DNA of 64,000 nucleotides from Candidatus Sysuiplasma acidicola. Lineage in GTDB: Archaea > Thermoplasmatota > Thermoplasmata > Sysuiplasmatales > Sysuiplasmataceae. The translations under genes and the position numbers were made by a program. The DNA lies in the NCBI GenBank assembly GCA_019721035.1, contig JAHEAA010000004.1:1-64000 (forward strand). Reading direction: 5' to 3'. Under the pieces are notes generated by a model, which did no database searches, was not told the DNA's origin, and saw only the letters and a program-made list of their open reading frames with translations. Shown in pieces: positions 3,537 to 58,469 of this stretch. Position 1 is the first letter of the stretch, and every line of letters begins with the position of its first letter.

Positions 3537-3660
3537 ACTGTGTCATCAGAGGCACCGGACTTCCATGAACAGTTGACATGTTCCGTCAATAGGAAACATT
3601 TTATCCGGTCTGCCAATATGTTTGCTCATATCGGAAAACAACTGTGAGGAACGTGGCATA

Positions 3661-4329
3661 ATGTCAAAGATCAAATTCGAACGGGGTCTGATCCTCGCAC
3701 TCGACGAAACAGATTACAGAAAGGCAATGAACATAGTGAATCAGGTAGGCAAGTATGTTGATGCTATCAAGCTGAACTGGCCTATCGTGCTTTCAAACGG
3801 ACCGCAGATAATCACTGAAATTTCAAACCACTTCCGTGTGATATGCGACTTCAAAGTCTCCGACGTACCGCACACAAATTCCATGGTCGCTTCCGCGGCA
3901 GCAAAACTCGGAGCATCCGGCATAATCGTGCACGGATTTCCAGGCGAGGACGCTGTCGAGGCCTGCATAAACAGTGCTCATGGTGCATCGATCTTTCTGG
4001 TCGTGGAGATGTCCAATCCCGGTTCGGCCGAATTTGGAAAGAAGTATTCTGACGAATTGGCCAGAATGGCTGTTAAACTGAAGGTCGACGGCATTGTGGC
4101 TCCCGCAACCAGGCCGGAGAGGATTAAGCATTTCAGGGGAATAGTTGGCAACCTACCCATCATTGCGCCGGGTGTAGGAGCTCAGGGCGGCGATGCCAGG
4201 AAGGCAATTATGAATGGAGCCGACGCACTGATCGCCGGACGCAGCATCTACGAATCAAGCGAGCCGCTGGAAGTGGTGAACAACTTTCTGTCAGAGGTGC
4301 AGTCCGGAAGGGATGAAATCGGGCAGTGA
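3661..4329 (+). CDS. pyrF: Orotidine 5'-phosphate decarboxylase
   Basis: Last step of UMP synthesis: decarboxylation of OMP to UMP. I chose the ATG at 3661 (MSKIKFERG), giving 222 residues, the usual size of the archaeal enzyme; an upstream in-frame start at 3622 adds 13 unconserved residues. The catalytic charge network is visible as Lys37 (DAIKLNW) and the Asp63-Lys65-Asp68 block (DFKVSDVPHTN). The phosphate-binding loop is GVGAQGGD near the C-terminus. The gene is alone, well away from pyrD/pyrK at about 35-37 kb, so the pyrimidine genes are scattered. A T-tract downstream probably ends its transcript. Confidence 0.95.
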   Translation: MSKIKFERGLILALDETDYRKAMNIVNQVGKYVDAIKLNWPIVLSNGPQIITEISNHFRVICDFKVSDVPHTNSMVASAAAKLGASGIIVHGFPGEDAVEACINSAHGASIFLVVEMSNPGSAEFGKKYSDELARMAVKLKVDGIVAPATRPERIKHFRGIVGNLPIIAPGVGAQGGDARKAIMNGADALIAGRSIYESSEPLEVVNNFLSEVQSGRDEIGQ

Positions 4330-4358: not shown

Positions 4359-4447
4359 ACGGAGATTGTGCAGTTTTCCTGTCGGATCATGACGGCTCTA
4401 GAGGTGCAGCGCGGGGAATATTTTTCCTCTTCAGACGCGTGCAACGC

Positions 4448-4455
4448 TTAAATAG
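4448..4455 (+). promoter_or_regulatory. TATA box of aglB
   Basis: TTAAATAG, about 50 bases before the chosen aglB ATG. The same octamer precedes the S53 peptidase gene at 62651-62658. Transcription would start near 4478, leaving a leader of about 25 bases. Confidence 0.5.
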
Positions 4456-4502
4456 CAAGTTCTTTATTGTGCAAAAAATACACTCTGGTTGTGCTTCAAA
4501 AA

Positions 4503-7500
4503 ATGGCAAATAATGACACGTCGACCATGCAGAAAAACAATCAAAAAAGACAGGACATCACCAGGCGGTCCCGGCTAGCCGGACATTTCACCGTACTTCG
4601 TGGTCTGGACTGGGAGACAATAGGTATACTCGCGTTGCTCGTTTTCTTCGGAGCCTACCTGCGTGTATACTTTGATTTTTCGCAGGCAATAGCCAATGGT
4701 TATCCAGGCCTTTCCGGTGGTTCAGACGCAGATTACTACTTCAGGGTTCTCACATATGCAATGACCACGGGCCATCAGCTTGAGTTTGACAAACTGCTCA
4801 ATTATCCCGTGGGGGCAGGCAATCCTTTCCTGCCTTTCTATGTCTGGTCAACTCTGCTTGCCGCATGGCCCATATCCTTCATATTCCACCTGCCTCCAAC
4901 CGCCTCGATCTATTCGGGAGTGCTTACAGGTGAAGTAGTGGCTTACGTGCTTATATCGGCATTCTCAGGCGTTGTCACAATTATCGTTGCATATTATCTT
5001 GGAAAAGAACTCTTCGACAGGCATACAGGCATATTTGCGGCGGCTTTCATGGCTTTCTTCCCGTCGATTGTTTCGGAAAGCACTGCCGGTTTCGGAGTGC
5101 ACGATCCATTCATACTCATGCTCACGGCCATTTTCTTCTTCTTCCTGTTCCGTTCACTGAAAACAATTAACGGAAGAAGGTGGGTGGAGTCTTACACAAA
5201 AGAGGACTCACGTATGCTCGATTTCAGAGGCATTTATGCCGGTATGCGTAAATACGCCAATGAAAACAGACAGTCCCTGACTTATGCCCTGATGGCCGGT
5301 ATAGTGGTGGCATCCATTGCGAATGCATGGGAGGGTTTCGCCTATCTGATTGTCATAGTCTCTCTCTTTTACCTCATTCAGTCGTTCATATATAAATTCA
5401 AGAACCGCGATACGCTGGCGCTCACATCGATCTATGCGGTCGTCGGCGCTTCTCTTCTTCTCTTCTCACTCCCGATTTATTTCCTGGGGCATCATGAGTA
5501 TCCCTGGTATGTCGTTCCCGTTGTATTCTTCATAGGAACATTCATCGTGGGTGTCATTTACACCGTTACGAGAGATGTTCCATGGCTCACTGTCCTCGCC
5601 TCCTTTGTGATTGGCGTTCTTGCCGTGCTGGCCTTCGCTGAATTTGTCGAGAAACCCCTGCTTCATACAATCGTGGCGGACATCCTTCTGGCACAGAGCT
5701 ACTTCATCAAGACTGCTGTCTATACCACAATTGCAGAAGCACTTGCGCCTCCGTTCAGCCTTCTCGCTCTCTCTCTAGGCGGTGCAGTCTTCTTCATCGC
5801 CTTTGCAGAGCTGGTCTATGCCCTTTATGCGAATAGGAAATCCATTTCAGATTCTATGATGCTGTTCGCTGTGTGGTCGATCATAGCGATTTTCATGGCA
5901 GTTTCCACAGTAAGATTCATACTGGACGCCACAACCGTCTTTGTTATACTGGGCGGAAAGGGCATATCTTCTGTAATACGATGGACGAACTTCGGCGAAG
6001 TGAAGAAAGGATTCGACACGTTCGGCTTCTCGTGGAGCGGAGCTAAGAAGAGCATCAAGCTGAAACACATCGTTGTCACACTGTTCGTAGCGTTTCTGAT
6101 CGTACTCCCTGTTGTCTGGACAGGAATAGATGCTGCGACGCCCACGACAGCCAAACAGAGTCTCAACTCGCAGGTATACAACATACTTCCGTCTTTTCTC
6201 AGGCCGGCAGGTTATACCAACAACGGAAGCAGTCCATATTATTTCGGTGGTTTTGGGTACAGTCTATCGACACAGAATGACTATTTCCCGGCCGCCTGGG
6301 AGTGGCTGCACAACCAGACTGCAGGCATTGAACCGTCCTGGCAGCGGCCTGCCTACCTGAGCTGGTGGGATTATGGAAGTGCCGTAATTACAAAGGCGGG
6401 AGTACCGACGGTTGCCGACGACTTCCAGCAGGGATATCACGTTGCATCGGCAGTTCTTTTCAGTCAGAATCAGACACAGCTGATATCGCTCCTCTCCGCC
6501 AGAGTTATGTATGGAGTCTTCAAGGATTACGGTAATACGCTGCCTTCCAACATAACCACGCTGCTGAACAGTTATGGCATCAACAGTTCCTATATTCTCT
6601 CAGTATACGCCAATCCGGCAAAATACACTCAGACAGTGCTTGCAAACCCCCAGGTTTACGGCCCGTTTGCAAATAGCGTGACTCCGCCAAATGTCATGTG
6701 GGCAGTGCTGATGGCTACACTTTCCAAGATAGGTCTAAACAATTCTGTGCAGCTTTATGGACAACTGTCACAGCTGACGCATTATTTTATTGGTTACTTC
6801 TCTGTGGACACAAGACTCTTTCCGTTCAGCGCAACCAACACCGGTGTATTCTACGCCCCTGCCTTCCTGGGCGGAAGACCAATCATCGGCCCGAGCGTTT
6901 ACAACATACCCTATAACTATTACACACTGACTGCCTCGACGGTTACCGGACTTAGTTATCCAATCCAGAATCTTCCACCAAACACACAGGTATCTTCATA
7001 CTCGATAAATTATCAGCCGATGTTCTACAACATGACGCTTTACAGATTCTTCATGGGATACAGCGGTTATGACCTCACGGGACAGGGCGGTCTTCAGGGA
7101 CTCCCGGGTCTGACAGGCAGCTTCGTATCAACCCCCGGACTCCAGAATCTCCAGCCGCTGCCGGGGTGGATGATGTCACATTTCTTCATGGCGTACAGAA
7201 CTGCCTATTTCAATCCTTATCCCATACAATTTGTCAGGGATCACCCGAATTCCTGGAAGGCAATAGATGTCTCAACGGCATTGAAGCTGCTTAAGAAGGA
7301 TCCGAATAATCAGAATTACACCATAGATCTCAGCCCGCAAAGTGATTACGGCAACGGAATAGTCATAATGCAGTATTACCCGGGCGCATACGTGAACGGG
7401 ACGGTTCTGCTAAACAATGGAAATCCAGCTGCAGGCGTCAGGGTAACCATGCTTGACGAATGGGGTATACCGCACGATATAACCTATACAAATGCGCAGG

Positions 7501-10500
7501 GAAAATACTCGCTCATTGCTCCTCCCGGCAATGATACAGTTGTATTCTCAACCGGTTCATTGTCCTCTCCTTCAGCAAGGGTCGCCGGCATCGGACAGTT
7601 CTTTGGCGAGCAGACGTACAATATTTCATACAACCAGGCAATGCGCAGTCCGGCGCTCAACACCACCACTGGTCTTCCCGCGTTCAACGTTGCGGCAAAG
7701 ACAATGACGCTCCAGGCCACTTCGCTGAGCGGATACGTCTTCTATGACAACAACAGGACCGGAACGTTCAACCCCGGTGTCAGCAGACTGTTCCAGAATG
7801 CGACGGTCAGGATAACGAACACCACAACGGGTCAGTCTTTCACTGCACCCGCCAGTAACGGTCATTACGACTTCTCAGCCGTCCTCCCCGGAATATATCA
7901 GTTCTCCATTCTGAAGGGTAATTCCACAATAACCACTCAGAATCAGACGACTGTTAATTATGCCTCAAACAGCACGCAGAATCTGCCTGTTTATCCCGGC
8001 GCAATTGGAGGCTATGTCAGATTCGGCGGCGGTGCGCCGGCGGCAGGCGTTTCAATAACTGTAGCGGGCGTCAGGAACGGCCTAACTGAAACGACTTCAT
8101 CAACCTCCAACGGCTCATACTCGGCGGTAGGTCTGCCGCAGGGGAACTACACAGTTTCGATCACTTCCGGCGGTACAGTTTCGGGCATATACGACGCTTA
8201 TGTCCGCAGCTTCAACACGACAAGTGTGGACATCACCGCTTCGTCAGAATCACACATTGACGGGAACGTTTTCATCAACGGTTCGGGTGCTGCGTTTGCA
8301 AAACTCTATTTCTATGCCAATTCCGGCAACTCCCTGCCTTATGTCATTACGACCGGCGACAACGGTCAATATAACGTCACTATAGGTTCGGGCAACTACA
8401 CGGCCTACTCCATTTATTACCTCAATGGTGCAAAGTACGTGCTTCTGCAGTCAATATCCGTGGCGCCGGGACAGAATCTCAGTGAGAATCTGTTTTTGAC
8501 TTCTGCGCACAGTGTCTCGGGAGTTGTGAAACAGAATGACGGAGTGCCTGCCTCCTTTGCACTGATACTCGTCCAGAACGGTGGTGCATCCATGGCATTC
8601 CGCTCGGACGGCAGCGGCAATTACTCGCTTGCGGTGCCATCGGGCACTTACAATATGTGGGCTCAGAACCCGGGCGGCGCATTCATGGGGCAGTTCACCG
8701 CCTCCGCGAGCGCAATGACCATGAACATAGCCGAGTCCCCCTCCCTGCGGTTTGCCGGGACCTTGAGCTCCAACACAACCGGTCCGAATCGCGGCATATC
8801 CGGGGCAGACATGGCAGTTGATTTTAACGGTATAACCTATCATTACTATACCGGCTCCGCCGGAAGCTTCTCGCTCTATCTCCCATACGGTAATTCATAC
8901 AGCCTTTCTGTTTCTGCATTCGGTATGATTTCGCACACTTTCCAGACAGGAAAGGGTTCGAATACGTCGGTTAATCTGGTATTGCAGCCGGCAGAGGTTG
9001 CTGTAAGCGGCAACATTGCATCACAGACGTCTCTGCCGTCCGGCATACAGGTGACTTTTGTTCCGCTGGCCTCCAATTACACTTCGAATTCTACTGTTGC
9101 GGTAAAAAATGGAGGTTATTCCGACTCTCTGCTTCCGGGTTCATACGGCATTGTTCTTACGGGCTACAACAATTCCAGCGTGCACTATGAGACGACGGCT
9201 GGTACCGGCACACTGAATGTTCCTGTGGGCAGCCCACTCTCCCATAATGTTTCGATCCAGGCGCTCTATAATCTCACACTGTCTTTTGATTACCCAGCCG
9301 GCTCGGGTTTGAACGGCAGCACCCCCCTTACGAGACTGGATATATTCGGCAGTACGCTTTCTCAGCCCATAGCGGCTGACGGTTTTGCGAACGGCACGCA
9401 TGAATTCCTGCCGTCCGGATCTTATGTACTCTATGCTTATGCCTCTGTATCCGGCAGAGTGTATGTGTTCCTTGACCGTATCACTCTCAATGGCGGAAGG
9501 GCGTTTCAGATGAACCTGACTTCTGCAGTAAACCTGTCAGGCGCGGCATATTATCAGGGTTCGCCGCTCTCCTCGTCTGAAACAGTCACCGTTACACAGC
9601 AGTCAACCGGCGCCAACATAACGGCTGCTGTGCAGTCTAACGGCACATTTACGGTAAGCCTGCCTTCCTCCAGCTACTCGATCAACATAACTTACTCCAC
9701 CACTTCCTCTACTCCGGGTCAGAAATATGTCGTGTATTATGGTGAAGCAACAGTATCTCTGACCTCTGCGACCTTCGTGCCTATAAACGCGACACTGCAC
9801 AGTGATAACAGCTCCGTCACCGGCACGGTGTCCTGGTTCTACGGCACCGGCGCACAGTCAAATATTGAATTTACTGCATCATCCAATACATCGGACACAT
9901 TCAACGTCACCACAGCTGTCAACGGCTCCTTCTCAGCCTCGTTGCAGCCCGGAAGCTATCACGTGCGTGTCCTCTCCACCGGTTACACCGGTTCAAATTA
10001 CACCACGATACAGGTCGTTCAGGGAACGTCCATGGTGCTCAATCCCGTTCTCCACACTTCATACAACGTGACAGGCTCACTGTCCGTATCGGGCATAGGC
10101 CCGGTCAGTGCACAGGTCACATTCATGTCGAACGCTTCATCGATAAGCGCTGTGGCTGTCAACGGTGCGTATTCCGTCCCCATGCCTGCAGGCAAATATG
10201 CGGTCTTCGCATCTTACTCAATGAAGTCGCATGGCACCACTTATTACTATGAATATGCAGGAAACCTTACGCTTGGTTCACCGGCATATGTGCCCATTAC
10301 AATGAATCTCAAAACTGTCTATTCGATAAGCATGAAGGTTCTTTCCAGTCAGCAGAACGGAGGCTCGGGCGGTTTTTCCGAAGTAACCGTTCTGGTCAAC
10401 AATACAGGTGATGTCCCGATAACGCTCAGCATGGGTGTTGTGACGAACGGCTGGTACGGCTCCTTCAGTCCTGCATTCCTGTCGCTTGGAACGGGCAGCA

Positions 10501-11159
10501 ATTCCTCCGCTGTCGTCAAGGGCATTATGTTCACATCGGCTGCCGTAGGCGGCGGAAACTCCTCGGTATACATACAGGCATATTCGCCGCATCTCACTGT
10601 TTCATCAGACACAGTAAAGGTCAGCCTGAGCGTTCCAACCTTCTACTCCTTCAACGGCAAAATTTCCTATTATGCACGTGAAGAACCGGGCAGGGTGTTC
10701 TCCGTCAACCTGGCCGTTTACAACAACGGGAATGCGCCAGCCAGTTTCGTCGTTTCCATCAGCAATTATGCTGAACTGCTGAAAGAGGGATGGACGGGCG
10801 GCATATCCACAGCACTATCAGGACCGTTTAACCACAATTCGACATCGTTTTCTCTTTCTGCCGGACAGAATCAGTCTATAACTATCACACTGACAGCAAA
10901 CAGTTCTGACACTCCTAACGTCGTGCCGATAGGAGTTTACATCGTCAACACAAACACAAACAAATCAAGCTCCATGTCGGTGCCAATAAGTCTGCCTAAT
11001 CCCGTCGTGTCGCTCAGCGGCATCTCGGTCAGCGGGCATGGCGCATCGGTTGTTCCTCCGCCTCTGTTTACGTCAAAGAGAGGGATCATCATATTCATAC
11101 TGGCGGCTATAGTCATAGCCGATATCTACATGGCAAAAAGGAAGAGGCTGATCAGATGA
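4503..11159 (+). CDS. aglB: Giant oligosaccharyltransferase AglB/STT3 with Ig-like repeat tail
   Basis: Membrane enzyme that transfers lipid-linked glycan to Asn in N-x-S/T sequons on exported proteins. The N-terminal half (about residues 30-560) has many transmembrane helices, with the first catalytic acidic motif SDADYYF (Asp75, Asp77). The extracytoplasmic domain carries the STT3 signature WWDYG at 621-625. From about residue 950 to 1990 there are roughly eleven tandem beta-sandwich units of the carboxypeptidase-regulatory type (VNGTVLLNNG..., IGGYVRFGGG..., VSGVVKQNDG...), then a NEW3-like segment, a C-terminal transmembrane helix and a basic tail. The total of about 2,218 residues is more than twice a usual STT3. 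The tail is itself dense in NxS/T sequons. An in-frame TTG at 4467 is less likely as start. The next gene overlaps it by ATGA. Confidence 0.93.
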   Translation: MANNDTSTMQKNNQKRQDITRRSRLAGHFTVLRGLDWETIGILALLVFFGAYLRVYFDFSQAIANGYPGLSGGSDADYYFRVLTYAMTTGHQLEFDKLLNYPVGAGNPFLPFYVWSTLLAAWPISFIFHLPPTASIYSGVLTGEVVAYVLISAFSGVVTIIVAYYLGKELFDRHTGIFAAAFMAFFPSIVSESTAGFGVHDPFILMLTAIFFFFLFRSLKTINGRRWVESYTKEDSRMLDFRGIYAGMRKYANENRQSLTYALMAGIVVASIANAWEGFAYLIVIVSLFYLIQSFIYKFKNRDTLALTSIYAVVGASLLLFSLPIYFLGHHEYPWYVVPVVFFIGTFIVGVIYTVTRDVPWLTVLASFVIGVLAVLAFAEFVEKPLLHTIVADILLAQSYFIKTAVYTTIAEALAPPFSLLALSLGGAVFFIAFAELVYALYANRKSISDSMMLFAVWSIIAIFMAVSTVRFILDATTVFVILGGKGISSVIRWTNFGEVKKGFDTFGFSWSGAKKSIKLKHIVVTLFVAFLIVLPVVWTGIDAATPTTAKQSLNSQVYNILPSFLRPAGYTNNGSSPYYFGGFGYSLSTQNDYFPAAWEWLHNQTAGIEPSWQRPAYLSWWDYGSAVITKAGVPTVADDFQQGYHVASAVLFSQNQTQLISLLSARVMYGVFKDYGNTLPSNITTLLNSYGINSSYILSVYANPAKYTQTVLANPQVYGPFANSVTPPNVMWAVLMATLSKIGLNNSVQLYGQLSQLTHYFIGYFSVDTRLFPFSATNTGVFYAPAFLGGRPIIGPSVYNIPYNYYTLTASTVTGLSYPIQNLPPNTQVSSYSINYQPMFYNMTLYRFFMGYSGYDLTGQGGLQGLPGLTGSFVSTPGLQNLQPLPGWMMSHFFMAYRTAYFNPYPIQFVRDHPNSWKAIDVSTALKLLKKDPNNQNYTIDLSPQSDYGNGIVIMQYYPGAYVNGTVLLNNGNPAAGVRVTMLDEWGIPHDITYTNAQGKYSLIAPPGNDTVVFSTGSLSSPSARVAGIGQFFGEQTYNISYNQAMRSPALNTTTGLPAFNVAAKTMTLQATSLSGYVFYDNNRTGTFNPGVSRLFQNATVRITNTTTGQSFTAPASNGHYDFSAVLPGIYQFSILKGNSTITTQNQTTVNYASNSTQNLPVYPGAIGGYVRFGGGAPAAGVSITVAGVRNGLTETTSSTSNGSYSAVGLPQGNYTVSITSGGTVSGIYDAYVRSFNTTSVDITASSESHIDGNVFINGSGAAFAKLYFYANSGNSLPYVITTGDNGQYNVTIGSGNYTAYSIYYLNGAKYVLLQSISVAPGQNLSENLFLTSAHSVSGVVKQNDGVPASFALILVQNGGASMAFRSDGSGNYSLAVPSGTYNMWAQNPGGAFMGQFTASASAMTMNIAESPSLRFAGTLSSNTTGPNRGISGADMAVDFNGITYHYYTGSAGSFSLYLPYGNSYSLSVSAFGMISHTFQTGKGSNTSVNLVLQPAEVAVSGNIASQTSLPSGIQVTFVPLASNYTSNSTVAVKNGGYSDSLLPGSYGIVLTGYNNSSVHYETTAGTGTLNVPVGSPLSHNVSIQALYNLTLSFDYPAGSGLNGSTPLTRLDIFGSTLSQPIAADGFANGTHEFLPSGSYVLYAYASVSGRVYVFLDRITLNGGRAFQMNLTSAVNLSGAAYYQGSPLSSSETVTVTQQSTGANITAAVQSNGTFTVSLPSSSYSINITYSTTSSTPGQKYVVYYGEATVSLTSATFVPINATLHSDNSSVTGTVSWFYGTGAQSNIEFTASSNTSDTFNVTTAVNGSFSASLQPGSYHVRVLSTGYTGSNYTTIQVVQGTSMVLNPVLHTSYNVTGSLSVSGIGPVSAQVTFMSNASSISAVAVNGAYSVPMPAGKYAVFASYSMKSHGTTYYYEYAGNLTLGSPAYVPITMNLKTVYSISMKVLSSQQNGGSGGFSEVTVLVNNTGDVPITLSMGVVTNGWYGSFSPAFLSLGTGSNSSAVVKGIMFTSAAVGGGNSSVYIQAYSPHLTVSSDTVKVSLSVPTFYSFNGKISYYAREEPGRVFSVNLAVYNNGNAPASFVVSISNYAELLKEGWTGGISTALSGPFNHNSTSFSLSAGQNQSITITLTANSSDTPNVVPIGVYIVNTNTNKSSSMSVPISLPNPVVSLSGISVSGHGASVVPPPLFTSKRGIIIFILAAIVIADIYMAKRKRLIR

Positions 11160-11932
11160 AAAAGTTTCTTCTCACTTTGGCAGCATTGCTGTTGCTCATG
11201 CCATCGCTTTCCGGGGCGGTAATGGCCATACCTGCATATCAGAACAGTTCAGCACCGCTTAACGTCTACCTGGCCGGACCCTCTCTGGTGGCCAACGGCT
11301 CGACTTCACAGTACTATCTAAATCTCTCGGGGGGCCCGTCCGGCTCCACGTCATTCAACTATTCCTATTCGGCAACAGTGCACGCCTCGAATATCACCGG
11401 ATCCAGCGTGAGTCCATCGTCAGGAAAGAGTCCAACCGGTGTATTTCCGATAAACATAACCGCCACCTCCGGTTCGGGCGTCATGACGATCGTCGTTAAC
11501 GCGTCCTATGCTGCAGGAAGCGTTACTGTAAACAAGTCACAGTCATTCCTCATTACTGTTGTGCACCCGATAGTAATCATCGTTCCTATTGTCAACAACG
11601 GCAATGTGGGAGTGCACAACGTTCCGGTTTCCATGTATGTGGATGGCGTATTTGTCCAGTCTCAGACTGTGAGTATTGCTGCCCACAATGAGACAAACAT
11701 CACGTTCGACTGGATTGCTTATTCATACTCTCCCGGGACTCACTACATTACGCTCGTTATAGATCACAACGGGACGCTTCTGTTTTCAAACGGTGCCAGC
11801 CGGACTACCGTCACTCTGTACATACCGTCCAGCACGTTTACCATGATTGACGATCTGCTGATTTCAGGCATAATTCTTGCGAGCGTTGCCTTCTTCCTGA
11901 TTTACATGAGAAGACCCAAACCCAGAAAATGA
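11156..11932 (+). CDS. Secreted, C-terminally anchored protein with CARDB-like domain
   Basis: A 258-residue protein whose ATG overlaps the aglB stop codon (ATGA), so the two are probably translationally coupled. It has a clear signal peptide (basic MKK, hydrophobic core at about 4-22). An extracytoplasmic stretch rich in Ser/Thr/Asn follows, then a beta-sandwich resembling CARDB (cell-adhesion-related domain in bacteria) at about 135-225: IVPIVNNGNVGVHNVPVSM. A transmembrane helix at about 233-253 and a basic tail end the protein. Many NxS/T sequons suggest it is N-glycosylated, possibly by AglB. It may be an accessory subunit or surface-layer partner of AglB; this is inferred from coupling and architecture only. 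Confidence 0.75.
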   Translation: MKKFLLTLAALLLLMPSLSGAVMAIPAYQNSSAPLNVYLAGPSLVANGSTSQYYLNLSGGPSGSTSFNYSYSATVHASNITGSSVSPSSGKSPTGVFPINITATSGSGVMTIVVNASYAAGSVTVNKSQSFLITVVHPIVIIVPIVNNGNVGVHNVPVSMYVDGVFVQSQTVSIAAHNETNITFDWIAYSYSPGTHYITLVIDHNGTLLFSNGASRTTVTLYIPSSTFTMIDDLLISGIILASVAFFLIYMRRPKPRK

Positions 11933-21156: not shown

Positions 21157-21245
21157 GCCACCATAGCTCAGGCGGTAGAGCGGCTGACTTGTATCTGATG
21201 CAGGCAATCAGCAGGCCGGGAGTTCAAATCTCCCTGGTGGCTCCA
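21157..21245 (+). tRNA. tRNA-Thr (TGT) with 13-nt intron
   Basis: Acceptor stem GCCACCA/TGGTGGC, T-arm GGGAG-TTCAAAT-CTCCC and discriminator T73 followed by an encoded CCA. Anticodon stem GCTGA/TCAGC encloses the loop CTTGTA|A once the intron at 21194-21206 is removed, giving anticodon TGT. A bulge-helix-bulge is visible: CTTG pairs with CAGG (one G-U), leaving 3-base bulges TAT and CAA that would be cut after their second base. This is the canonical 37/38 site. A TATA-like TTTTATAT lies at 21124-21131. Confidence 0.93.
21194..21206 (+). other. Intron of tRNA-Thr
   Basis: A 13-base archaeal tRNA intron between positions 37 and 38, with splice sites defined by the bulge-helix-bulge described for the tRNA. 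It would be cut by the tRNA-splicing endonuclease and the exons joined by RtcB with archease. Confidence 0.85.
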
Positions 21246-55316: not shown

Positions 55317-58300
55317 TCAGTCGGAGTAGTAGTTGGCGTCGTAAGGCTGCGGACTCAATCCCTTTCTCTTTCTTATTTCGGGGACCACTTTGTCTGCTAT
55401 CTCCTTCGGCATCTTCTCGTATCCGGAGTTCTCTGTGGACCACAGCGCCCTTCCCTGCGTGGCGCTCCTTATCGCGCTGGCAAAGCCGAACATTTCAGAT
55501 ACCGGCGCCTTCGATTCGATTACTGTGTTCTCTCCTTCCTGTCTCATGTCCAGGATGACGCCGCGCCGCTGCTGAATCTCACGTATAGCGTCACCCATCA
55601 CGTCCGGCGGGACGTTGATGTATATTTTCTGAATGGGCTCGTAAAGCACTCTTCCTGCGACCGCCATCGCGCCGTATATCGCGGAACGTGTTGCGGGAAT
55701 GACCTGTGCCGGTCCTCTGTGTATGCTGTCCTCGTGAAGTTTTGCATCGACAATCTTCACCTTCAGGTGCATCACCCTCTCCTGTGCGAGCGGCCCGAGC
55801 CGCATCGCCTCCTCGTAGGACTGTTTGCACAGTTCCATCGTCTCGAAGAGGTACTGAATACCCTTGGTGTAGTCGATGAGCACGTTCGTGTCGTAAAACA
55901 TCTGAACGCCCCTCGCCTCATCCCTCTCCATTCCATATTCCTGGAGCTTCTTGGCCAGTGCCTTCGAATCCTTGATTCTTCCTTCCGTCTTGATTTCACC
56001 GGACGTGATGGCCTTCACGACGCTCTCTTCGAGCGGCTCGACCTCGACATAGAATCTGTTGTGCTTGTTGGGCGACTTTCCTTCAAACGGACCGCCCTTT
56101 CCTTCCACACTCTCCCGGTAGACGACAATCGGCTTAGAGGCCTTGATCTCACACTTGTAGTCGTTGACGATCCTGTATTGAGTGACTTCAAGGTGCAGTT
56201 CGCCCATTCCGGAGAGCAGGTGCTCTCCAGTCTCCTGATTTATCTCGACTGTTATCGACGGATCCGCTTTACCGATGTTTCTCAGAACCTCGATGAGTTT
56301 CGGCAGATCCTTCATCTGCTTTGCTTCTATGGCCACAGTGACCACAGGCTCGCTGTAATGAACCATTCTTTCGAACGGCTCTATGCCTTCGATGGAAGAC
56401 ACGGTGGAACCGGCTATCGCATCCTTGAGGCCTGTGACAGCAGCTATGTTGCCTGCCCTGATCTCCTCGACCGTAATCCTGTCCGCTCCGACCGACAGTG
56501 CAACCGTCTGCACCCTGTTAGCCTGGTGCATTCCCGACACGTAAAGTTCCTGTCCCCGTTTCAGCGTGCCTGAAAACAGTCTTCCCACGGCAACTTCGCC
56601 TGCATGCGGATCAATGATGATTTTTGTTACCATGAATATGGTAGGTCCGCCCGGATCAACCTTGAGCATCGACTGGCCCAATTCAGACTCCTGATCTCCC
56701 TTCCAGATTGCAGGAATCCTCATCTTCTGGGCATCAATCGGACTCGGATGATTCTTAATTACAGATTCCAGGACCACCTTATGGAGCGGTATGCGCTGTG
56801 CAAGGGCCTTCTGGTCTCCTCTCTTCAGGTGTTCGTAAATGTCGCCAAAAGTTATGCCTGATTTCTTCATGTATGCTGCCGATATTGCCCAGTTGTTGTA
56901 TGCACTGCCGAACAGCACTGTTCCGTCCTCCACGCGGACGCCCCACAGTTTTTTGAGCTCTTCCGGAGCCGCCGCATGGATTCTCTTGTTAACATCGTTG
57001 ATAATGTTCACAAATCTTTTCTGCATGTCTTCAGGAGTGACCTTGAGTTCGTTGATCAGCCTGTCCACCTTGTTTATGAACAGTATCGGGCGTACCCTCT
57101 CTCTCAGCGCCTGCCTTATGACTGTTTCAGTCTGCGGCATGACTTGTTCTACAGCATCAACAAGTATTATGACGCCGTCTATGGCCCTCATGGCCCTCGT
57201 TACGTCGCCGCCAAAGTCGACATGCCCCGGTGTATCAATGAGATTGATCAGATAGTCGTTCCCGTCTATATCCTCCACCATTGATGCGTTAGCCGCGTTT
57301 ATCGTTATGCCTCTTGCCTGTTCCTGTTCGTCATAATCAAGCAAGAGCTGCTTTCCTGCGAGCTCCTCGCTCATCATTCCCGCGCCGGCAATCAGATTGT
57401 CGCTCAGCGTCGTGTTGTGTATGATGAGACCCTCCACGAGCAGGTTGTGCGTTTCCTCGACAGAGAAGTCAAAGACAAACTCATCGTAAGCGCTCTCCAG
57501 CCCCTCCACTTCAACAACAGTGAGTGTGGAAGGCAATTGCGGTGCGAGCAGCGAGACTGTTCCACCCGCTACCGAAGTCATCAGTGCGAGGGACACTTCC
57601 GGCACGCTGTTATCCTTGTCATGATGTGCATTCACGACATCCGCGAGCCTGCTGACTTCATTATGGAAATCAGGATCTGACGGCTCCAGCGAGAAGCGGT
57701 AACCGTACCTGAGCATTGAAAGTGCAATGGCCCTGAGTGCTTTCCTCTGCGCTTCCCCGTGCCCGTCACCGTCCAACATATCGAGCATCGCCGACGACAG
57801 CGCGAAAAGCGTGCCCGTTTCCAGTTTCGGGAATATCCCCGCCTGGCTGCCTTTTCCGAACAGCACGTTTACGAGTTCATCTCCGGTATCATCCAGGACA
57901 TCGGTTATAATCGCAGATGCCGTCTCCTTCAGCGCGTCAGGAGCTGTGCTCTTTCCAGTGAGTCTGGTGAATTCGTCGGCGCCGACGACGGACGTTTCCA
58001 CATCGACTGCAGACGGCACTATGAGTTTGTCCCCGATGACAAGTTCCGAAGATCGGAGTTCATGAACAACTCCCTTTCTGTATGCGATGAATTTGTGTTC
58101 AGGCGTGACTGTCACTGGTCTGCCAGACTGCGGCCTGACCCTGATCAGCGGTTCGTCGTTCCTGATCTTCCAGACGTGCGTGATTCTCCTCTTTTCCAGT
58201 TTCATTTCGTTTGTGTTAAGCGATATTGTGTACTCGTCGCCGTCTGATAAGTATACCGTCTGGTCCGCGTCCGAGAAAACGGGCTGCCCGGTCGCATACT

Positions 58301-58469
58301 TCGAGTACAGCGCCATTGCCTCAATCCATGTTCCGTTCGTGAACACCATTGCGTCGCCAGTCATGCACTTTCCGTGATCGATGTGCGCCGCTGTTCCGAT
58401 GTTTCGTATGAATCTCGGATCCTTCATTATAGCCTGAGCTTTGGCAATATTGTCTTCCTTTCTTCCCAA
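55317..58469 (-). CDS. fusA: Translation elongation factor 2 with in-frame intein
   Basis: GTPase that drives ribosomal translocation. The precursor is 1,050 residues; removing the intein (residues 35-352) leaves 732, exactly the usual EF-2 length. The intein splits the P-loop AHIDHGK|TT. Other G motifs are [20 protein letters not shown] and [12 protein letters not shown]. The C-terminal domains have the diphthamide loop, with the target His in [13 protein letters not shown]. Until the intein is removed, the factor cannot bind GTP, so splicing is essential. It lies 26 bases after rps7 on the same strand in the S12-S7-EF-2 cluster. Confidence 0.97.
57414..58367 (-). mobile_element. Intein in EF-2, 318 residues, P-loop insertion
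   Basis: Protein intron that excises itself after translation. Block A begins with Cys1 (CMTGDAMVF). Block B is [11 protein letters not shown] with the T-x-x-H. Block F is [16 protein letters not shown] and block G ends GLIIHN, with the penultimate His, terminal Asn and +1 Thr of the EF-2 P-loop. All splicing residues are present, so it should be active. Intein residues 130-290 form a middle domain of about 160 residues with one weak LAGLIDADG-like stretch ([11 protein letters not shown] at 192-202), which suggests a degenerate homing endonuclease. No second dodecapeptide is clear. Confidence 0.95.

Follow-up and report, generated by a model that had tools for sequence, protein, structure and literature searches.

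The oligosaccharyltransferase (OST) AglB is usually regarded as a stand-alone, purely catalytic enzyme. Previously tabulated AglBs comprise 754-1054 residues (PMC5131992), and the roles of the first DXD motif and of the TIXE motif have been described for the Archaeoglobus fulgidus enzyme, AfAglB (PMC8342417). Among eukaryotic translocon factors, NOMO possesses 12 immunoglobulin (Ig)-like lumenal domains, one transmembrane (TM) helix and a short tail, is force-bearing (PMC12262048), and, according to one proposal, tethers translocon factors to one another (PMC11169918). The mammalian back of Sec61 (BOS) and OST complexes use overlapping sites behind Sec61 (PMC9630114). Here we analyzed a stretch of 64,000 nucleotides from Candidatus Sysuiplasma acidicola (order Sysuiplasmatales, class Thermoplasmata; contig JAHEAA010000004.1, positions 1 to 64,000 of the forward strand), referred to below as the window, in which one gene encodes an AglB that continues into a long extracytoplasmic arm with its own C-terminal membrane anchor.

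An oligosaccharyltransferase fused to a doubly anchored arm

From sequence comparison and structural modelling, the gene product is a single-chain oligosaccharyltransferase (AglB). The gene, its parts and its downstream partner were located as follows.

4503 to 11159, forward strand: fusion gene, an uninterrupted open reading frame (ORF) of 2218 residues from the first ATG (ATG at 4503; end of the stop codon at 11159)
4605 to 6146, forward strand: STT3/AglB transmembrane core, residues ~35-548 (hydropathy, Pfam STT3, AlphaFold2 and Foldseek match to AfAglB)
4719 to 4727, forward strand: first DXD motif, G73-S74-D75, with D75 invariant in homologs (alignment)
5727 to 5738, forward strand: TIXE motif, T409-I-A-E412, its T409 and E412 unchanged across 34 homologs
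6147 to 7352, forward strand: extracytoplasmic catalytic globular domain, residues 549-950 (AlphaFold2, Foldseek)
6363 to 6377, forward strand: WWDYG catalytic motif, residues 621-625, invariant in the alignment of homologs
7359 to 10334, forward strand: arm of ~11 tandem transthyretin (TTR)/CarboxypepD_reg-like beta-sandwich units, residues ~953-1944 (Pfam, AlphaFold2)
7359 to 7628, forward strand: first TTR-like unit, residues ~953-1042 (homolog conservation, AlphaFold2 strands)
10335 to 10982, forward strand: residues ~1945-2160, the pair of Ig/NEW3-like domains that closes the arm (AlphaFold2 strands; NPCBM_assoc/FixG_C in homologs)
11073 to 11141, forward strand: C-terminal TM helix followed by a short basic tail, residues ~2191-2213 (hydropathy, AlphaFold2 helix)
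11156 to 11932, forward strand: partner gene, 258 residues, with a signal peptide, a CARDB beta-sandwich, a C-terminal TM helix and a basic tail, overlapping the fusion gene by 4 bases

Pfam STT3 (PF02516) was matched at residues 75-485 (E 7.7e-13; 49.2 bits against a cut-off of 24.5), and a profile of the core matched A. fulgidus AglB (3waj) with an E-value of 3e-33. An AlphaFold2 model of residues 1-1200 (predicted local distance difference test, pLDDT, 84.0; predicted template modelling score, pTM, 0.75) returned A. fulgidus AglB (7e9s) as its top PDB match in Foldseek (E 4.1e-26; TM-score 0.66 on the target); the STT3 fold, a multi-TM core with a C-terminal globular domain, was thus recovered by both Pfam and Foldseek. 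The residues of the first DXD, TIXE and WWDYG motifs (D75, T409/E412 and W621-G625) were invariant across 34 homologs, and the globular domain was the best-conserved region of the protein (89.8% against the nearest relative). The archaeosortase-A system model TIGR04154 (archaeo_STT3) gave a partial match at 42-660 with 132.7 bits, below its curated cut-off of 450.

Seven stretches of the arm matched CarboxypepD_reg (E 4.3e-40), together with SdrD_B, CarbopepD_reg_2 and NOMO_5th, and the region near the C-terminus matched NPCBM_assoc/NEW3 in 3 of 34 homologs and an FixG_C Ig domain in 14 of 34. The AlphaFold2 model of residues 1019-2218 (pLDDT 81.1; pTM 0.44) comprised all-beta units ending in the helix at 2191-2213. 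Reading its strands together with the Pfam matches gave ~11 TTR-like and 2 Ig/NEW3-like units, ~13 in total. The first TTR-like unit was conserved above the remainder of the arm, with D985 and H991 invariant in the homolog alignment. Foldseek placed the arm model among generic flexible bead-string proteins, which gives no function. The initial annotation of this DNA had described some eleven beta units followed by a NEW3-like domain, with a TM helix at the end, a description that proved accurate on Pfam, AlphaFold2 and hydropathy; the domain search and structure prediction that it proposed for the arm yielded the units and the helix given above. Its further reading of a long extracellular arm on the N-glycosylation enzyme, tethered to the membrane at both ends, is supported by the multi-TM core and the C-terminal TM helix (hydropathy, AlphaFold2).

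An assembly or frameshift artefact fusing two genes, which the initial annotation had named as a possible refutation, was also considered, and no point in its favor was found. The gene is present as one copy in its genome with no internal stops, and homologs at 81, 61, 60, 51 and ~30% identity from independent assemblies, which include closed single-contig genomes with the same open frame, were of equal length and stop-free. All 2218 residues could be aligned to a relative at 80.8% identity, and the ratio of nonsynonymous to synonymous substitution (dN/dS) against that relative was 0.06 for the TM core, 0.037 for the globular domain and 0.107 for the arm, the last indicating purifying selection on the arm. 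Among 41 relatives, 37 matched the fusion gene, mostly as a single stop-free frame of 2,050-2,400 residues. In G005 and G006, both same-family genomes lacking a match, the contigs ended 73 and ~440 bases past the upstream neighbor pyrF, and these absences are probably assembly gaps; in G037 (89% complete) the gene was not found, though 1.5 kb beyond pyrF was readable. The artefact reading was rejected on the homologs, the single intact copy and the arm dN/dS, and we give it virtually no chance; the fusion is real and intact.

Distribution of the fusion and conservation of its partner

The phylum was surveyed by a PF02516 search of 295 genomes, with 40 loci read in detail. Full-length colinear homologs were found in 19 families of the class Thermoplasmata, and the same layout held throughout the class at 2.05-2.4 thousand amino acids (kaa), compared with 2.3-3.2 kaa in other lineages of the phylum. 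Outside the class, long forms with a C-terminal TM helix were recorded in families f29, f30, f31, f33, f35, f38, f39, f45, f46 and f47, and the copy in f41 was long too but ended with its contig. Short forms of 0.9-1.4 kaa lacking the C-terminal TM helix were found in f27, f28, f32, f36, f37, f40, f42, f44, f49 and f53. On a FastTree tree of the core, the long or short label required three changes against a shuffled mean of 11.9, one of the three being due to an incomplete copy (L099). This small number of changes suggests an old long arm with a clustered distribution, gained perhaps once and lost in some lineages. The initial annotation had asked whether the fusion is lineage-specific, which needs correction from the length survey; restriction to one genus or family was rejected, as the fusion was found class-wide and in several other lineages.

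The fusions of f38 and f46 (L057, L058, L066, L067) reached ~3.2 kaa. It was noted that their WWDYG motif lay at ~930-980, preceded by 16-19 hydrophobic segments, and that downstream the CARDB partner was replaced by a different gene, possibly a subtilase (C-terminal motif).

In all readable loci of class Thermoplasmata, the partner gene lay on the same strand within ~40 bases of the fusion stop, mostly with a gap of -4. Its homologs, of ~250-280 residues, share the signal peptide, CARDB-type domain, C-terminal TM helix and basic tail, and CARDB was detected in 24 of 27 members. The partner was larger in f15 (L046, L047; ~350 residues with four hydrophobic segments or TM helices) and shorter in L039, with no evident TM helix. 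This downstream gene had been overlooked in the initial annotation. Searches of the partner against Pfam and PDB sequences returned CARDB only and no match to subunits of the translocon-associated protein (TRAP) complex or of OST, and its identification by sequence as a TRAP or OST subunit was rejected.

Arm length differed by lineage (~1.0 kaa in f6, described below; ~1.2 kaa in the class; ~1.85-1.9 kaa in f38 and f46), as might be expected if the arm were a passive by-product that arose as low-cost beta-sandwich units duplicated in tandem and that serves no particular function. Against this stand the near-constant length within the class, the conserved C-terminal anchor, the low dN/dS and the conserved partner, and we consider the passive reading very improbable.

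The open full-text literature that was searched yielded no account of the fusion, of its partner or of the inactive family presented below; it did not cover the AglB survey of Nikolayev et al. 2020 (cited in PMC12153357), which could contain one. One STT3/AglB phylogeny paper was faulted by its own referee for dropping over-long sequences (PMC4973528).

Sequon excess in the arm and the partner

Sequons (N-x-S/T, where x is not P) were counted against the mirrored motif S/T-x-N. The 56 arms with an intact core contained 1950 sequons against 920 mirror motifs (ratio 2.12), with a ratio of 2.57 in the same arms when N-x-T was compared with T-x-N, and partners of active enzymes contained 249 against 93 (2.68). 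Because the mirror motif is of identical composition, an abundance of N, S and T is unlikely to explain the excess. Its occurrence in both proteins suggests that arm and partner are probably substrates of the enzyme.

Sequon density in the arms reached 7 per 100 residues, with z up to 17.8 against shuffles. These values favor the main rival to the scaffold role proposed below, namely an envelope rod: on cells that have neither wall nor S-layer, arm and partner would form a glycan-bearing, force-bearing stalk or brush, fusion to the enzyme would ensure dense self-glycosylation, and the rod of f6 would be sugar-free. The arm repeats are likewise of the surface type found in pilins, SdrD and UafA. 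However, the active members L008, L018, L023, L042 and L044 possess few sequons and no excess, and a pure rod need be neither the unique OST nor retain a constrained inactive TM core. We regard the rod as unlikely, though a serious contender.

It was also noted that the second DXD motif, V199-H200-D201 in the window, was changed to N-Y-L in f9 (L026, L027, L029) and to G-R-M/A in f17 (L035, L036), with WWDYG, TIXE and the sequon excess retained. The metal site of the enzymes with an altered second DXD, including the V-H-D form here, may differ.

Loss of the active site with retention of the arm

Family f6 carries mcrA, which places it within Methanomassiliicoccales; it is most likely Methanomethylophilaceae, a family name reached by inference. 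The fusion gene was present in 45 of 45 f6 genomes searched. WWDYG was lost in 43 of the 44 copies with letters at the motif and was kept only in L114 (genus g39), the single f6 copy in which TIXE was recognisable. Individual residues were retained at W622 in 1/44, D623 in 17/44, G625 in 3/44, D75 in 9/45 and R471 in 1/45. The core was intact in the mcrA-positive sister families f20, f22 and f23 (L039-L043), which together with the intact L114 indicates that the loss occurred inside f6. No second STT3 was found in 20 f6 genomes, where PF02516 matches at E<=10 comprised the fusion gene only.

The inactive f6 arms contained 491 sequons against 428 mirror motifs (1.15; 351/327 + 140/101), and the partners of inactive copies 47 against 40 (1.18), as expected if N-glycosylation is gone. 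The truncated arm of L114 carried 7 sequons against 3 mirror motifs, too few sites to weigh the rule. The arm, C-terminal TM helix and partner were kept in f6 wherever readable, and the inactive TM core remained constrained (dN/dS 0.09-0.22), with arm values from 0.11 to about 0.66. That these parts outlast the active site argues for a catalysis-independent role of the arm; f6 has apparently given up STT3-based N-glycosylation and kept a scaffold. Retention in all of these genomes beside an inactive core also effectively refutes the arm as a passive by-product.

The core tree put f6 beside f17 and f9, apart from the other mcrA-positive families, a placement that is unreliable because inactive cores evolve fast; the intact copy L114 was closest to f20, f22 and f23. 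In the f6 genus g35, the pairs L082/L087 and L088/L092 gave arm dN/dS of 0.63-0.67 against ~0.2 in the inactive TM core, a possible surface diversification.

The initial annotation had suggested that the arm could bind the S-layer or capture acceptor proteins, which would raise glycosylation efficiency. The arm lies on the same side of the membrane as the catalytic domain and has adhesion-type folds, both in keeping with this. Yet the arm persists in f6 after catalytic loss, and the members of f6 probably lack an S-layer: neither a cell wall nor an S-layer was seen in the Methanomethylophilaceae isolate M. alvi (PMC10673518), an observation that disfavors S-layer binding and at the same time speaks for the envelope rod. 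The S-layer-less Cuniculiplasma also possesses AglB (PMC5155288; presence only). Acceptor capture as the sole role is disfavored by the arm and partner outliving the active site, and neither function can account for the partner retained in f6. We consider this pair of functions improbable.

A possible scaffold at the site of protein export

We judge it an evenly balanced call that the AglB-arm protein is also a membrane scaffold, a role that would be independent of glycosyl transfer because in f6 the active site was lost and yet the core, the arm, the anchor and the partner all remain. More tentatively, this scaffold may sit at the protein-export site. Leaving the multi-TM core, the arm would curve back to the membrane at its C-terminal TM helix, and the partner would bind the arm, perhaps through the two Ig domains closest to the membrane. 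Arm and partner could thereby make up a vestibule or tether outside the cytoplasm, most likely where proteins are exported, and there the core would glycosylate emerging chains and its own arm. Such tethering would be analogous to the way in which NOMO, at the multipass translocon of eukaryotes, keeps other factors in place. The suggestion in the initial annotation that the arm could hold the enzyme near export sites comes close to this favored scaffold role.

The resemblance to NOMO was drawn from searches with the arm. A profile of the arm against PDB sequences gave NOMO2 (9c7v_B) as the best match (E 7.7e-35; best single stretch 6.5e-11), with the next protein at 2.7e-7. Pfam NOMO_5th was found in 26 of 34 arms and in none of three CarboxypepD_reg controls taken from the same genome. 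The arm possibly works like NOMO, by analogy and without being identified as NOMO.

Several observations weigh against a NOMO-like scaffold. One control CarboxypepD_reg protein of the same genome gave a marginal NOMO1-like_2nd match (9.6e-4), and the arm profile stretch 68-283 matched three NOMO regions, the repeats supplying much of the score. In Foldseek, NOMO was not among the top 50 matches of the arm, and for the core model only a NOMO fragment appeared, at rank 37 (E 7e-4). No Sec or ribosome genes were seen beside the operon. As f6 forms a single clade on the core tree, its loss was probably one event, and the sequon difference between the groups is not a test on independent samples. 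Finally, the arm dN/dS of 0.35-0.66 in one f6 genus is more readily explained by exposure to the outside than by a housekeeping machinery, and this rapid evolution counts in favor of the envelope rod.

In its fullest form, the scaffold proposal holds that a single chain in Thermoplasmatota, accompanied by a TRAP-like partner, both glycosylates and serves as a NOMO-like scaffold of the translocon, the scaffold being so important that one methanogen family keeps a dead-enzyme "pseudo-OST" complex; we advance this tentatively, as somewhat less probable than a scaffold role as such. If true, an inactive STT3 is kept as a scaffold, and prokaryotes would have an equivalent of the OST/BOS accessories of the eukaryotic translocon. 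A whole archaeal class would then have AglB as a double-anchored scaffold with a dedicated partner. Family f6 separates both roles of the protein in nature, making a non-catalytic OST function directly testable, and the presence of "AglB" in f6-type genomes is no evidence of N-glycosylation.

Other features of the window

Additional features were noted upstream of the fusion gene and elsewhere in the window.

3658 to 4329, forward strand: pyrF, orotidine-5'-phosphate decarboxylase (Pfam), the upstream neighbor in many class loci and in f6
4446 to 4455, forward strand: candidate archaeal TATA box (GCTTAAATAG), 47 bases before the ATG of the fusion gene, with a putative promoter function
21157 to 21245, forward strand: tRNA gene with an anticodon unreadable to ARAGORN (two bases); a good tRNA in Rfam (60.8 bits)
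55317 to 58469, reverse strand: elongation factor 2-like ORF of 1050 residues, with an intein just before or in the GTPase domain (Pfam Intein_splicing, 78-352)

The TATA-box match was the sole one in the window, against a chance expectation of 0.07. A possible alternative start, an in-frame TTG at 4467, would give a fusion protein of 2230 residues.

Comparison with known systems

The fusion protein shares with A. fulgidus AglB (PDB 3waj/5gmy/7e9s) the multi-TM core, the globular catalytic domain and the first DXD, TIXE and WWDYG motifs, and differs in its second DXD, a motif with metal ligands Asp and His/Asp, which reads V-H-D here in place of D-H-H, the AfAglB form, or of D-H-D. Relative to the AglBs tabulated in PMC5131992, it possesses an extra ~1,200 residues and a C-terminal TM helix.

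For the partner, the comparison is one of topology and a lead only. TRAP alpha and beta and OST1, single-pass accessories of the translocon, combine a signal peptide, an extracytoplasmic beta-sandwich, one TM helix and a short tail, and the partner is of like topology, whereas its sequence matches CARDB and no TRAP or OST subunit.

Like the arm, NOMO is built of tandem TTR/Ig-like extracytoplasmic beta-sandwiches (~12 domains in NOMO; ~11 + 2 here), and like the fusion it ends in a single C-terminal TM helix and a short tail (2191-2213 and a short basic tail here). Orthology was unsupported, as the match was neither one-to-one nor colinear domain by domain, and the likeness is best taken as a lead toward tethers of the NOMO type at prokaryotic translocons. 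NOMO exists as a protein of its own, in complex with nicalin and TMEM147, whereas here the array is fused to STT3. In mammals, the sites of the BOS and OST complexes behind Sec61 overlap (PMC9630114).

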